A DNA stretch of 23,768 bases from positions 1-23,768 of the IMG/VR virus record IMGVR_UViG_3300032050_000821; one strand, written 5' to 3'. Below the pieces are notes generated by a model that was not told the DNA's origin, made no database searches, and saw nothing but the letters and a program-made list of their open reading frames with translations. Of this stretch, positions 9,273 through 21,629 are shown piece after piece (the stretch's first letter is position 1; each line of letters begins with the position of its first letter). The stretch comes from a virus. A program made the translations under genes and the position numbers.

Positions 9273-9507
9273 TCTTGTAAGGCTCAGTAGCGAGAGTGTT
9301 AATCAAGCGGTTCAAGTACCAGCGACATTTCATCGCATCTTCCAGCGGATCTTTTTTCAGCCACATCCGACTGAGGTACTTAAGACACTGCCACTGGAGC
9401 GAACCAGTGCGGGCATCAGGCGCATGTTGCACCCAATCCTCCAACACCTCAATTACCTCAGTCTTCCCCGCCGTGTAATGCGAGGGATGGTCAACTGAAT
9501 TACTCAT
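9265..9507 (-). CDS. DUF3310 protein (SaV-like)
   Basis: An 80-residue protein with the family signature: VDHPSHYTAGKTEVIEVLEDW, then LQWQCLKYLSRMWLKKDPLEDAMKCRWYLNRLI. The HPSHY start, the KYLxR-x2-KK-DP core and the xKAxWYLxRLI end are diagnostic of DUF3310, a short phage family sometimes labelled nucleotide kinase-like. The true function is not established. The start at 9507 is chosen because it overlaps the dcd stop as ATGA and leaves the conserved region intact; a longer reading upstream would only add the shadow of dcd. Its pairing with dcd suggests a nucleotide-metabolism role. Confidence 0.9.
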   Translation of the reverse strand: MSNSVDHPSHYTAGKTEVIEVLEDWVQHAPDARTGSLQWQCLKYLSRMWLKKDPLEDAMKCRWYLNRLINTLATEPYKND

Positions 9508-11914: not shown

Positions 11915-11985
11915 GGGTCGTGCCGGAATCGAACCGACTTTCTAAGTGCGTTGTCCGCCTGTCCTTACCAATAGACTACCGACCC
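11915..11985 (-). ncRNA. tRNA-like element 1 (non-canonical anticodon arm)
   Basis: Read on the minus strand, 71 bases. Acceptor GGGTCGG pairs with ACGACCC over 6 bp (position 7-66 is G-A). TA follows, then a D-arm GTCT-ATTGGTAA-GGAC with GG at the normal place. The T-arm is GTCGG-TTCGATT-CCGGC, fully paired with a perfect T-loop. Between them, where an anticodon arm should be, lies AGGCGGACAACGC plus a variable stretch; it forms only GCG-GACAA-CGC, with no 7-base loop or U33. No CCA is encoded. A second element at 13466-13535 is nearly identical and covaries (C5-G68 to U5-A68). It is unlikely to decode; RNA processing signal or tRNA mimic are possibilities. Confidence 0.65.
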
Positions 11986-12006
11986 ATGACAATTTAGTGG
12001 AAGCGA

Positions 12007-12378
12007 CTATTCGTGATCGGGTAAGGATTCAAGCACGGCGCGGATGAGCTTGTAGTTTTGGATGCTCAAATCAGCCTGTTCTTCATCCAAAGCTTCCAGC
12101 GCCTGCTCCTTCAAGCTCGGCGGCTTAGGGCGGCGAGCAATCCAGATGTCTTCGGTTAAACGAACACGGTCACTGGTTTCGTCGATGTAAAAAAGTCCTG
12201 CTCCATCAATGATCTCCATGCGGCAAGCCTCCAACTCCTGATCAGCACCCCATTGGGCAGCGCGGGTGGCAAGGTCTAGATGAAAATTGGACTGGGAAAT
12301 TTTGCCACCAAAATAAGCATCAACCCACTGCTGCACCAGCTCAGTCGGCGGTGGGGTGATGGGGTGTTGTTGTGTCAT
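12007..12378 (-). CDS. HPITPP / RRPKPPSLKE family protein, copy 1
   Basis: A 123-residue member of a three-gene tandem family. Shared blocks are the start MTQQHPITPPP, the middle AAQWGADQELEAC, the RRPKPPSLKEQALEAL segment and the end IRAVLESLPD. I know this family from marine Synechococcus and cyanophage sequences, often in several copies and of unknown function. Between blocks the copies differ in length and sequence. A 44-base stretch covering its first codons and leader is identical to that of copy 2. No catalytic motif is evident; helical, acidic, cytosolic. Confidence 0.8.
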   Translation of the reverse strand: MTQQHPITPPPTELVQQWVDAYFGGKISQSNFHLDLATRAAQWGADQELEACRMEIIDGAGLFYIDETSDRVRLTEDIWIARRPKPPSLKEQALEALDEEQADLSIQNYKLIRAVLESLPDHE

Positions 12379-12391
12379 GGGTGATTAGTGG
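12348..12391 (-). repeat. 44-base exact direct repeat, copy A
   Basis: Identical to 12694-12737. It covers the leader and the first ~10 codons of the HPITPP gene starting at 12378. Identity extends into the untranslated leader, which points to recent duplication or gene conversion rather than protein constraint. Confidence 0.85.
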
Positions 12392-12397
12392 TAATGA

Positions 12398-12724
12398 CTA
12401 CTCGTTGTCGGGGAGCTGCTCAAGAGCGCGGCGGATGGTGTCAACAGATTCGTTGGTGAGGATTGTTTCACCAGTCGTGTACCGCGTCAGCGCAGTTAGC
12501 GCCAGCTCCTTCAAGCTCGGCGGCTTGGGGCGGCGGCACAACATCAGGTCTTCGCCATCAAGACCCCAGTCGTCCATCAGCGCACAGCACGCCTTCAGCT
12601 CTTGGTCTGCACCCCATTGGGCTGCACTGTCAATGAGGTAGTCGTACACGCTGGTGTTCGGCGCTTCGTCAAGCCACTTGTCGCGCAGTTCCTGCGGTGG
12701 GGTGATGGGGTGTTGTTGTGTCAT
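12398..12724 (-). CDS. HPITPP / RRPKPPSLKE family protein, copy 2
   Basis: A 108-residue paralogue of the flanking genes: MTQQHPITPPQELRDKWLDE, then SAAQWGADQELKACCALMDD, CRRPKPPSLKELALTAL and a C-terminal VDTIRRALEQLPDNE. The conserved IRRALEQLP end is shared with copy 3. The leader and first codons match copy 1 exactly. It sits 20 bases upstream (in transcription) of copy 1 and follows the SPAAQ-family gene. Function unknown. Confidence 0.8.
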   Translation of the reverse strand: MTQQHPITPPQELRDKWLDEAPNTSVYDYLIDSAAQWGADQELKACCALMDDWGLDGEDLMLCRRPKPPSLKELALTALTRYTTGETILTNESVDTIRRALEQLPDNE

Positions 12725-12737
12725 GGGTGATTAGTGG
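12694..12737 (-). repeat. 44-base exact direct repeat, copy B
   Basis: Identical to 12348-12391; covers the leader and first codons of the HPITPP gene starting at 12724. Confidence 0.85.
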
Positions 12738-12746
12738 AGATGCCTA

Positions 12747-12977
12747 CTAGGCTTCGATCTCGGTGGCGATGGCGAGGAGGCGATAGCGCACCATCAACAG
12801 GCTCGGAATCATGGCCGGAGATCCCGGCAAAACCTGATCTGCAGCAGCTCGCAAAGCGGCGGCGACATCGGATTTGATCTGGTCAATCGACTTCGGACAG
12901 GCGTAATACGGCACGTCGTAGCGCTTAAGCGTCACGGCATTCAGCACTGCTTGCGCGGCGGGTGAAAGTTCAGTCAT
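12747..12977 (-). CDS. Small protein, SPAAQ/ALRAA family (paralogue of 1632-1877)
   Basis: A 76-residue protein. The start at 12977 is chosen because it overlaps the upstream stop as ATGACTGA and gives the family start MTELSPAAQAVLNAV; a longer reading would only repeat the end of copy 3 out of frame. It continues VAAALRAAADQVLPG and ends LLAIATEIEA. The late-region gene at 1632-1877 has the same three blocks. It is placed between two HPITPP genes. Function unknown. Confidence 0.78.
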   Translation of the reverse strand: MTELSPAAQAVLNAVTLKRYDVPYYACPKSIDQIKSDVAAALRAAADQVLPGSPAMIPSLLMVRYRLLAIATEIEA

Positions 12978-13344
12978 CGAGCTGCTCCAGTGCGCGATGG
13001 ATAATGTCGATGTCTTCAGGCTCAATTTCCATGCGTCCGTCCAATGTGTAGCCGCTTTCAAGAAGCACTCGCATGGCCTGCTCCTTCAAACTCGGCGGCT
13101 TGGGGCGGCGACGCTCACGAATGTGCCGCACCAACATGCTGCGCTGATGCTTGGTCCCGCAAACCGGATCGACCAGCGCAATAGCGCAGCACGCCTCCAG
13201 CTCCTGGTCTGCGCCCCATTGGGCGGCATGTTCGATCACCTGAAGCGTGAGGTCATGAAGAGGGATGACCGAGGGATTCCCGTAGATCTCGTGTACCCAC
13301 TTGGCAGCAAGCTTCGGCGGTGGAGTGATGGGGTGCTTTTCCAT
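12970..13344 (-). CDS. HPITPP / RRPKPPSLKE family protein, copy 3
   Basis: A 124-residue member of the tandem family: MEKHPITPPPKLAAKWVHEI, HAAQWGADQELEACCAIALV, RRRPKPPSLKEQAMRVLLES and the end DIIHRALEQLDD. It is more diverged from copies 1 and 2 than they are from each other, and its leader differs. Its leader contains a perfect AT-rich palindrome (13346-13363) immediately before the ATG, suggesting control of the whole four-gene set. Function unknown. Confidence 0.8.
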   Translation of the reverse strand: MEKHPITPPPKLAAKWVHEIYGNPSVIPLHDLTLQVIEHAAQWGADQELEACCAIALVDPVCGTKHQRSMLVRHIRERRRPKPPSLKEQAMRVLLESGYTLDGRMEIEPEDIDIIHRALEQLDD

Positions 13345-13345
13345 T

Positions 13346-13363
13346 ACATAAAAGTTTTTATGT
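13346..13363. promoter_or_regulatory. 18-base AT-rich palindrome, operator candidate
   Basis: ACATAAAA-GT-TTTTATGT is a perfect inverted repeat ending one base before the start codon of the gene at 13344. Inverted repeats of this type are typical binding sites of small dimeric regulators; two RHH proteins are encoded in this block. It could also fold as an RNA hairpin over the start. Confidence 0.45.
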
Positions 13364-13465
13364 TAGGTACGAAAGCTAGTCGTACCAGTGGATTTGGGGT
13401 GAGGGGCGTACAAAGGTTTATGGGCGAGTCGCGTTTAATGCAGCCCCGACCGAGCTGCACCCCTC

Positions 13466-13535
13466 GGGTTGTGCCGGAATCGAACCGACTGTCTGAAGCG
13501 TTGTCCGCCTGTCCTTACCAATGGACTACCAACCC
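13466..13535 (-). ncRNA. tRNA-like element 2 (non-canonical anticodon arm)
   Basis: Read on the minus strand, 70 bases. Acceptor GGGTTGG/ACAACCC (6 bp plus G-A), D-arm GTCC-ATTGGTAA-GGAC, T-arm GTCGG-TTCGATT-CCGGC. The segment AGGCGGACAACGC is identical to element 1; the following seven to eight bases differ. Relative to element 1 the acceptor pair 5-68 changes from C-G to U-A and the D-stem pair 13-22 from U-G to C-G, so base pairing is conserved while sequence changes. No 5-bp anticodon stem with 7-base loop can be drawn. No CCA is encoded. It lies between the genes at 13567 and 13344. Confidence 0.65.
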
Positions 13536-13537
13536 AG

Positions 13538-13559
13538 CCCGCTGCCGAAGCAGAGCGGG
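13538..13559 (-). other. UUCG-tetraloop hairpin before tRNA-like element 2
   Basis: On the minus strand CCCGC and TGC pair with GCA and GCGGG around a TTCG loop closed by C-G, with a two-base bulge. It lies seven bases after the stop of the gene at 13567 and two bases before the tRNA-like element. No T-tract follows, so it is more likely an RNA-stabilising or processing structure than a terminator. Confidence 0.45.
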
Positions 13560-13566
13560 AACCCTT

Positions 13567-21068: not shown

Positions 21069-21090
21069 TTCCGTTACCTACCGATCAACA

Positions 21091-21116
21091 GCCCGGCCTT
21101 AGTGCCGGGCTTTTTT
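21091..21116 (+). terminator. Rho-independent terminator
   Basis: GCCCGGC (21091-21097), loop CTTAGT, GCCGGGC (21104-21110), then six T. It ends the transcript of the gene at 20679-21068. Confidence 0.92.
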
Positions 21117-21117
21117 A

Positions 21118-21146
21118 TTGTTGCGCAGTGGTGGCGCTAGTATTGA
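21118..21146 (+). promoter_or_regulatory. Promoter candidate for terS
   Basis: TTGTTG (21118-21123), 17-base spacer, TATTGA (21141-21146), directly after the terminator and 24 bases before the small terminase ATG. Confidence 0.5.
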
Positions 21147-21170
21147 ACCAAACGGCCAGGGAATCTAACA

Positions 21171-21629
21171 ATGTCGGACAATCCGGAAGCTAACAGCGAA
21201 GCGCCGGAAGTATCGGCGGAAAGTGAAAAGAAGTACTCACGACCGTTCGGTAAGCGTAACCCGAATGCTGTTATAGAAGAGCGCCGGAAGCGGCTTTATA
21301 AGCGGCAGCTGACTGGCTTACCCGTTCGCCAGTTGGTACTAGATCATGCTGATCGTGAAGGTATTGGTGAAGTTACAGCTTGGAGAGATTGGGATGAAGT
21401 GAAAAGGTGGAATGAGGAGGATTGGAGCAAGGATCGCGAGAGCATAGTTTCACGTTTGCAGGCTATGCGCATGAGAGCAATCGACGCTGCTATCCGTAAG
21501 GGGCAGATAGGCTCCGCCCAACTCCTCATGCGGGACCTTGGCGCAGTGGTTGGTGAGGTCGCACCGGAAGCGCAGGCAGCAGCTGCCCCTACGCTCAACA
21601 TCACGGTTGAAGACAAGCGGCAGGGTTAG
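21171..21629 (+). CDS. terS: Terminase small subunit (probable)
   Basis: A 152-residue protein. After an acidic disordered N-terminus comes FGKRNPNAVIEERRKRLYKR, then a helix-turn-helix-like LTGLPVRQLVLDHADREGIG followed by VTAWRDWDEVKRW, a long oligomerisation helix (SIVSRLQAMRMRAIDAAIRK) and GSAQLLMRDLGAVVGE, and a flexible tail. This order (DNA-binding N-terminal domain, helical oligomer region, short C-terminal tail) and the position before terL suit a small terminase that recognises the packaging site. Sequence identity to known TerS is not something I can assert; position is the main support. Confidence 0.68.
   Translation: MSDNPEANSEAPEVSAESEKKYSRPFGKRNPNAVIEERRKRLYKRQLTGLPVRQLVLDHADREGIGEVTAWRDWDEVKRWNEEDWSKDRESIVSRLQAMRMRAIDAAIRKGQIGSAQLLMRDLGAVVGEVAPEAQAAAAPTLNITVEDKRQG

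Follow-up and report, generated by a model that had tools for sequence, protein, structure and literature searches.

What does a tRNA-shaped element do in a phage genome once its decoding arm has gone? This question was raised by two short stretches of viral DNA, described in the first-pass annotation as tRNA-like elements with normal acceptor, D- and T-arms and no anticodon arm. We analysed them within the whole stretch to which they belong (hereafter the window: 23,768 nt, positions 1 to 23,768 of IMGVR_UViG_3300032050_000821) and among their relatives in other viral genomes.

Two tRNA-like elements in the window

Re-reading the sequence confirmed the coordinates and the minus strand of both elements, as well as their intergenic placement, both lying in gaps between minus-strand ORFs. 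The elements, their parts and their neighbours are as follows.

11915..11985, minus strand: tRNA-like element, copy A (71 nt), from the sequence as read; covariance model R1, 95.1 bits
11946..11959, minus strand: mini-hairpin of copy A, GGCG-GACAA-CGC(A)C with the A bulged; minimum-energy fold, two-sided changes at 4/4 pairs among relatives
11951-11955, minus strand: GACAA loop of copy A
11961..11976, minus strand: D-arm of copy A, GUCU-AUUGGUAA-GGAC; 3/4 D-stem pairs invariant (n = 73), G19 covarying with C56
11922..11938, minus strand: T-arm of copy A, GUCGG-UUCGAUU-CCGGC; two-sided changes at 4/5 T-stem pairs in relatives
13466..13535, minus strand: tRNA-like element, copy B (70 nt); covariance model R1, 83.1 bits
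13496..13510, minus strand: mini-hairpin of copy B, AGGCG-GACAA-CGCUU, 5 bp, without the bulge; minimum-energy fold
13501-13505, minus strand: loop of the copy B mini-hairpin
13536..13561, minus strand: small hairpin UUCCCGCUCUGCUUCGGCAGCGGGCU, abutting the 5' end of copy B; probably a neighbouring RNA module
12007..12378, minus strand: small ORF, PHROG 32006 (function unknown), just upstream of copy A; context only
12398-12724 and 12970-13344: PHROG 32006 paralogues of the 12007..12378 ORF

In full, copy A reads GGGUCG-GUA-GUCU-AUUGGUAA-GGAC-A-GGCG-GACAA-CGC-A-C-UUAGAAA-GUCGG-UUCGAUU-CCGGC-A-CGACCC. Copy B has U-A for C-G at acceptor position 5, C-G for U-G at D-stem position 13, and an altered stretch after the AGGCGGACAACGC block, the block itself being the same in both copies; the first-pass annotation had reported these pair-preserving differences and the shared block correctly. 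Its "normal acceptor" holds in that an acceptor stem is present, yet this stem has 6 bp, since position 7 and its partner are unpaired. For both copies the minimum-energy fold has four arms, the third of them short, and 7/200 shuffles of copy A and 2/200 of copy B folded as well as the native sequence. When the window was scanned with a covariance model of 73 relatives, a training set to which both copies belonged, copy A scored 95.1 bits and copy B 83.1, against 9.9 for the best site elsewhere. The two window elements are far above chance and are genuine members of a large RNA family.

Between the two copies, three PHROG 32006 paralogues stand in tandem (12007-13344), with short spacers carrying TAGTC-N5-CACTAA-like repeats. 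A module closely resembling the UUCCCGCUCUGCUUCGGCAGCGGGCU hairpin also abuts the element in two otherwise different loci (L101, L114). Elsewhere on the minus strand of the window, positions 9282-9337 match the archaeal C/D-box RNA sR39 (26.6 bits, E 0.0056, family threshold 50), probably by chance, and positions 21089-21178 form a terminator-like hairpin with a weak match to the Xanthomonas sRNA asX2 (21.5 bits, E 3.3), probably owed to the hairpin alone.

Distribution and fold of the family

A pattern scan found the exact 22-base core in 68 further viral stretches, and looser pattern scans together with BLAST gave at least 191 copies in at least 190 loci. A copy identical to copy A occurs in L018, L033 and L058, and the copy B form also in L028, L037-L039, L052, L055, L057, L058 and L060-L063. 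Among phage records, BLAST identified the element in the isolates S-CREM1, DSL-LC03, S-PM2, S-RIM32, S-SZBM1 and one S-RIM8 isolate, and in none of these six records is it annotated. The element is thus widespread, being carried by many cyanophages (phages of photosynthetic bacteria); the presence of psbA in 4 of the 28 longer records searched fits cyanobacterial hosts. The host of the window itself is judged from the shared element, as the relatives found for its terminase and polymerase are all distant; no DNA-level close relative of the window was found among phage records.

The covariance model matched 28/28 phage records at E <= 2e-24, most of these being in its training set, and served as positive control for a search of 386 cyanobacterial genomes, in which no copy was found at E <= 1e-9. 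The exact pattern likewise had no match in 84,980 GTDB species genomes. Elements score 78-96 bits with this model, phage tRNAs at most 39.6 and host tRNAs at most 33.6. By these searches, the element is a phage-specific RNA gene; the absence of matches in the 84,980 species and 386 cyanobacterial genomes rules out a host-derived gene or an integration site. Its presence varies within one phage group: in S-RIM8 KX349286 it lies within an insertion of ~325 bp between tRNA-Thr and tRNA-Ala, and in S-RIM8 A.HR5 the two tRNAs are adjacent and the element is absent. As most S-RIM8 isolates are without it, the element is dispensable at least in S-RIM8 laboratory hosts. Across the six isolates its mean identity is 0.86 versus 0.74-0.90 for neighbouring tRNAs; it is conserved as strongly as the adjoining functional tRNAs.

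For the analysis of the fold, 73 distinct sequences were aligned. The set is redundant, its effective size at 90% identity being ~10 sequences; the counts given here are therefore of sequences and not of events. The tRNA-like structure is paired in 99.4% of cells, and 13 of the 19 pairs, including all four of the mini-hairpin, show two-sided changes; the covariation score is 0.634; shuffling lowers it to 0.191, and sliding the structure along the alignment to 0.169 or less. RNAalifold, run independently, returned the same fold minus the outermost hairpin pair. In tRNA, G19-C56 is the tertiary pair that joins D-loop and T-loop at the elbow. A scan of all column pairs recovered it as G-C in 68/73 and A-U in 5/73 sequences, broken in none; the A19-U56 form is found in both acceptor clans, and G18-U55 is kept in 73/73. 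Three of the four D-stem pairs never vary; as this stem hardly varies at all, its support is conservation and not covariation. Other D-stems were seen in two loci, both of them true relatives; in one, L300, the D-stem includes a G-U pair. Selection on the RNA fold, claimed from the two window copies, is strongly supported by the covariation among the 73 sequences and by the elbow pair, and this comparative evidence has shown that selection maintains a cloverleaf of tRNA shape, including the elbow between D-loop and T-loop. A chance resemblance or a decayed tRNA is ruled out by covariation in the helices and the elbow.

The missing anticodon arm turned out to be half of the matter: the decoding arm is indeed gone, but a covarying mini-hairpin with a GACAA loop stands there. 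Throughout the family this position is a covarying hairpin of 4-5 bp with a near-fixed GAYAA pentaloop, its stems being GGCG, GGCA, GGUG, GGGU, GGGC, CCCC, CCCU, GGUA or AGCA with matching partners, and its closing pair G-C, C-G, A-U or U-A. The loop is GACAA in 88/95 and GATAA in 7/95 sequences of a set selected for GAYAA; the six isolate sequences, obtained by BLAST with the loop unconstrained, have one or the other in 6/6. Only one viral contig combined this D-arm with a loop whose first base is not G (AACAA in L299), and this is also the sole variant that emerged when the same D-arm was sought with a different anticodon arm. As the stem of the GACAA hairpin covaries in relatives, the element is better called a tRNA shape with a non-decoding mini-arm than armless. 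In P22 boxB, a GACAA loop takes a GNRA-like fold with its C turned out (PMC12550061), and the loop position that varies in the family (C or U) is the one turned out there; by this analogy, the GAYAA loop is probably GNRA-like. Pairing of the GACAA loop with TTGTC upstream of copy A was considered and ruled out, the partner missing at other copies.

Because the loop has five bases and sits on a stem with a covarying closing pair, the formation of a 7-base anticodon loop with U33 is excluded, and the element lacks a decoding arm of 5 bp with such a loop. The regular anticodon arm with a 7-base loop, named in the first-pass annotation as the observation that would speak against it, was looked for and not found. 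A consistent set of identity bases (discriminator, first pairs, anticodon) is lacking too: the first acceptor pair is C-G, G-C, A-U or U-A, and the discriminator base is A in 66, T in 42, C in 16 and G in 5 sequences (n = 129). With both varying freely, aminoacylation is unlikely. The loss of decoding is strongly supported by the 5-base GAYAA loop and by ARAGORN anticodons that differ between copies, two features that also rule out an ordinary tRNA; from sequence comparison, it is well supported that the element does not decode and bears no specific amino acid. Descent from one tRNA species found no clear winner, the D-arm being nearest to those of His, Glu, Trp and Gln.

Position in tRNA arrays and next to other small RNAs

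In 80 of the 191 copies collected, the next tRNA starts 3-7 nt downstream of the element, most commonly 4 nt, and in four loci (L008, L023, L035 and L095) it is flanked by tRNAs on both sides, at 1 nt upstream and 4 nt downstream. Among copies of the GGGUCG, CAACCG and CGACCG types, most have no tRNA nearby. In seven of the records with these types (G006, G010, G013, G016, G018, G020 and G021), combining abiF positions with element positions placed an abiF RNA (RF03085) upstream of the element with a gap of exactly 4 nt, although two of the abiF matches, those of G006 and G016, fall below the family cut-off; in an eighth record, G417, the gap is 5 nt. Neither window copy has an abiF RNA neighbour. 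The 4-nt spacing to the next tRNA, together with the 4-nt gap after the abiF RNA, suggests a tRNA-like maturation of the element. In S-CREM1 and S-SZBM1, an abiF RNA stands 4 nt before an ordinary tRNA; abiF RNAs were also seen in L076 and L078, and most of the abiF RNAs observed in these cyanophages end 4-5 nt before a tRNA or an element.

In C. difficile, the abiF RNA has been proven to act as antitoxin to the AbiF toxin (PMC12373285), and its cyanophage counterparts are possible anti-AbiF decoys. Abi_2 toxins were found in 8/151 host-family genomes; a search of host genomes for ToxN toxins, which had no positive control, gave 0 matches.

A second small RNA, a 37-nt pseudoknot-like module (AGUGGGGACAUAGGUAAAGUCCCCAACACCUACCACA), stands directly 5' of the element in, for example, L002, L078, L081, L084 and L163. 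Of 41 finds, 32 end 1-2 nt upstream of the element and 8 others lie 0-1 nt before an ARAGORN tRNA-His or tRNA-Leu feature, probably the element under another label; since the loci were fetched for holding the element, these counts are no unbiased sample of the association. Its first stem is 100% paired, with two-sided changes in 4/6 pairs, and its loop GGUA can pair with UACC to give an H-type pseudoknot, the second stem being invariant and thus seen as complementarity only. In size and shape the module is like a type III antitoxin. It had no Rfam match in L078 and 0 matches in 399 host genomes.

Further distinct hairpin- or pseudoknot-like modules between tRNAs were observed in the 75 nt upstream of the element in L001, L012, L016, L083, L074 and others, examples of such inter-tRNA modules being CUAGGUAGAUAACCUAGAAAGAGACUACC and GAGUCGGGAUCAUCAUAUCCGACUC. 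The tRNA arrays look like banks of small RNAs.

Possible roles of the element

Our best explanation, put forward tentatively, is a processed non-decoding tRNA mimic that acts in trans, possibly as a counter-defence decoy. The element would be a phage small RNA of ~71 nt cut from longer transcripts as tRNAs are, a well-supported step, with its 5' end made by RNase P and its 3' end by RNase Z or trimming. Both enzymes read the tRNA elbow (PMC11693755), and the retention of elbow, acceptor and T-arm with tRNA-like spacing argues for such maturation; by the same RNase P cleavage, abiF-type antitoxin RNAs that sit beside the element in one transcript may be trimmed at their 3' end. Less firmly, the mature RNA would work in trans: copies between two tRNAs have nothing to release, so the RNA itself is probably the product. 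Conservation is strongest in the D-arm and the GAYAA loop, together with the bulged A and a GA of the variable loop; this invariant face may bind a tRNA-binding host protein, most likely an anti-phage one, the element serving as decoy or antitoxin-like RNA. The abiF antitoxin next to it and the Abi_2 toxins in host-family genomes make a counter-defence decoy the leading guess, at modest confidence; the antitoxin idea rests on location by abiF RNAs, which also adjoin ordinary tRNAs. The suggestion in the first-pass annotation that tRNA mimicry may be aimed at host enzymes is plausible. In its broadest form, which we regard as possible but doubtful, this explanation would make the element a phage counter-defence RNA of a new class. 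It would be a free-standing mimic of tRNA, its anticodon arm rebuilt as a putative protein-binding GAYAA hairpin; host tRNA-processing enzymes would mature it, and it would travel together with antitoxin-like RNAs of the abiF and pseudoknot kinds in "RNA antidote banks" within the tRNA arrays of cyanophages.

The main rival, which we consider unlikely, is that the element serves just as a recognition fold for RNase P/Z, through which polycistronic phage RNA is cut and the small RNAs or mRNAs next to it are released, in the manner of mascRNA at MALAT1. It would account for the 4-nt gap between abiF RNA and element in seven records, for the pseudoknot-like module ending 1 nt upstream in most copies (at loci chosen for the element), for the placement of the window copies between ORFs, and for an elbow pair read by RNase P/Z (PMC11693755) and kept by covariation. 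Yet many copies lie inside tRNA arrays, and in the four loci where the element sits between two tRNAs nothing is left to punctuate; moreover, the D-arm and the GAYAA loop are conserved far beyond what punctuation would need, neither the hairpin nor the invariant D-stem being required for it. Of the RNase P/Z proposal in the first-pass annotation, processing is thus indirectly supported by the tRNA and abiF spacing, but mRNA punctuation fits poorly as the main function; punctuation of mRNAs or neighbours may be a second one.

It is improbable that the element is instead a decoy or substrate for a host enzyme that handles tRNA outside defence (modification, CCA addition, a synthetase, tRNA-dependent pigment synthesis). 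The tRNA elbow and D-arm are kept, the D-arm GUCU/GGAC resembles that of phage tRNA-His, tRNA-Glu, tRNA-Trp and tRNA-Gln, and S-PM2 and S-RIM32 have CpeT genes near the element; but no tRNA species is clearly closest, and the acceptor identity positions are variable. We rate as distinctly improbable a regulatory platform, in which the GAYAA hairpin would be a boxB-like site for a phage protein (e.g. in antitermination) on a tRNA scaffold: the GACAA loop is shared with P22 boxB, GNRA-like with the C looped out (PMC12550061), and the sole varying loop position is that looped-out one, but placement in tRNA arrays with tRNA spacing suggests excision.

An unorthodox working tRNA decoding with the GACAA loop is very improbable. 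ARAGORN, run on at least 191 copies, calls most of them tRNAs, including Val(aac), the counts being Leu(caa) 87, His(atg) 26, unknown 22, Val/Arg/Leu(taa) 8 and nothing 48 (in the window, copy A is "tRNA-Leu(caa)" and copy B is unreported), and L012 passes the Rfam tRNA model (RF00005) at 31.8 bits against a threshold of 29. But the assigned anticodon differs from copy to copy, the flanking pair of the 5-base loop covaries with U33 absent, and discriminator and first pair are unconserved. The Rfam model gives a mixed picture: real tRNAs mostly score 41-78 bits, and beside the one element that passes, seven copies were unreported (both window copies, which gave just sub-threshold tRNA-Sec matches, S-PM2, S-SZBM1, L053, L078 and L038). 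A decayed pseudo-tRNA or integration-site remnant, for which the tRNA-derived look and the gain or loss among S-RIM8 isolates might speak, is scarcely credible, being refuted by compensatory changes in every helix except the D-stem and in the elbow; the lack of a match in the host genomes searched and an identity as high as that of working tRNAs also speak against it.

Known tRNA mimics comprise tmRNA, YrlA, mascRNA and the plant-virus tRNA-like structures. With canonical tRNA (RF00005) the element shares the cloverleaf, the D- and T-arms, the elbow pairs G18-U55 and G19-C56, U8, A14 and the array spacing; it differs in the GAYAA 5-base loop on 4-5 bp, the 6-bp acceptor and the lack of anticodon, U33 and identity bases. 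The mascRNA and menRNA (from MALAT1 and MEN-beta) have a tRNA elbow without decoding, are cut by RNase P and RNase Z and are not aminoacylated (PMC11693755); they are, however, human nuclear RNAs with a reduced D-arm, whereas the element has a full D-arm, a GAYAA hairpin, a phage origin and horizontal spread. YrlA (RF02553), a bacterial RNA with a domain that resembles tRNA in its D, T and acceptor arms (PMC8394870), has 90-150 nt and a long Ro-binding stem, in contrast to the 70-72 nt of the element without extra stem, and its model matched no element examined. The tRNA-like domain of tmRNA is also a mimic without anticodon, but the element has no messenger part or partner sequence and its D-stem is fully base-paired; with RF00023, the S-PM2 element showed an overlap of just 17 nt and 12.5 bits, short of a tmRNA. 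The abiF RNA (RF03085) occurs in the same phages, often ends 4 nt upstream and possibly shares a counter-defence role, yet is a separate 37-nt RNA of different fold. P22 boxB has the GACAA pentaloop on a short stem (PMC12550061), but the hairpin of the element sits in a tRNA scaffold and has a bulged A, with no N protein known. Among the families of Rfam 15 and the open papers searched, none of this architecture was found.

Automatic annotation labels many copies tRNA-Leu, tRNA-His or "unknown" tRNA; with copies miscalled and nothing listed at this place in the isolate records examined, including the model phage S-PM2, a conserved RNA gene of widely studied marine and freshwater phages would be missed. 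The tRNA arrays of cyanophages are usually explained by codon usage. The element, the abiF RNAs and the small modules suggest that these arrays also carry non-decoding RNAs, possibly directed against host defences, and the isolates that carry the element make these ideas directly testable. In one of them, S-PM2 (AJ630128), the element is at 164658-164728, and around it, in 161658-167728, ARAGORN lists tRNAs for Ile, Met, Leu, Thr, Ala, Met, Asn and Leu, eight features that are all missing from the GenBank annotation of this stretch.
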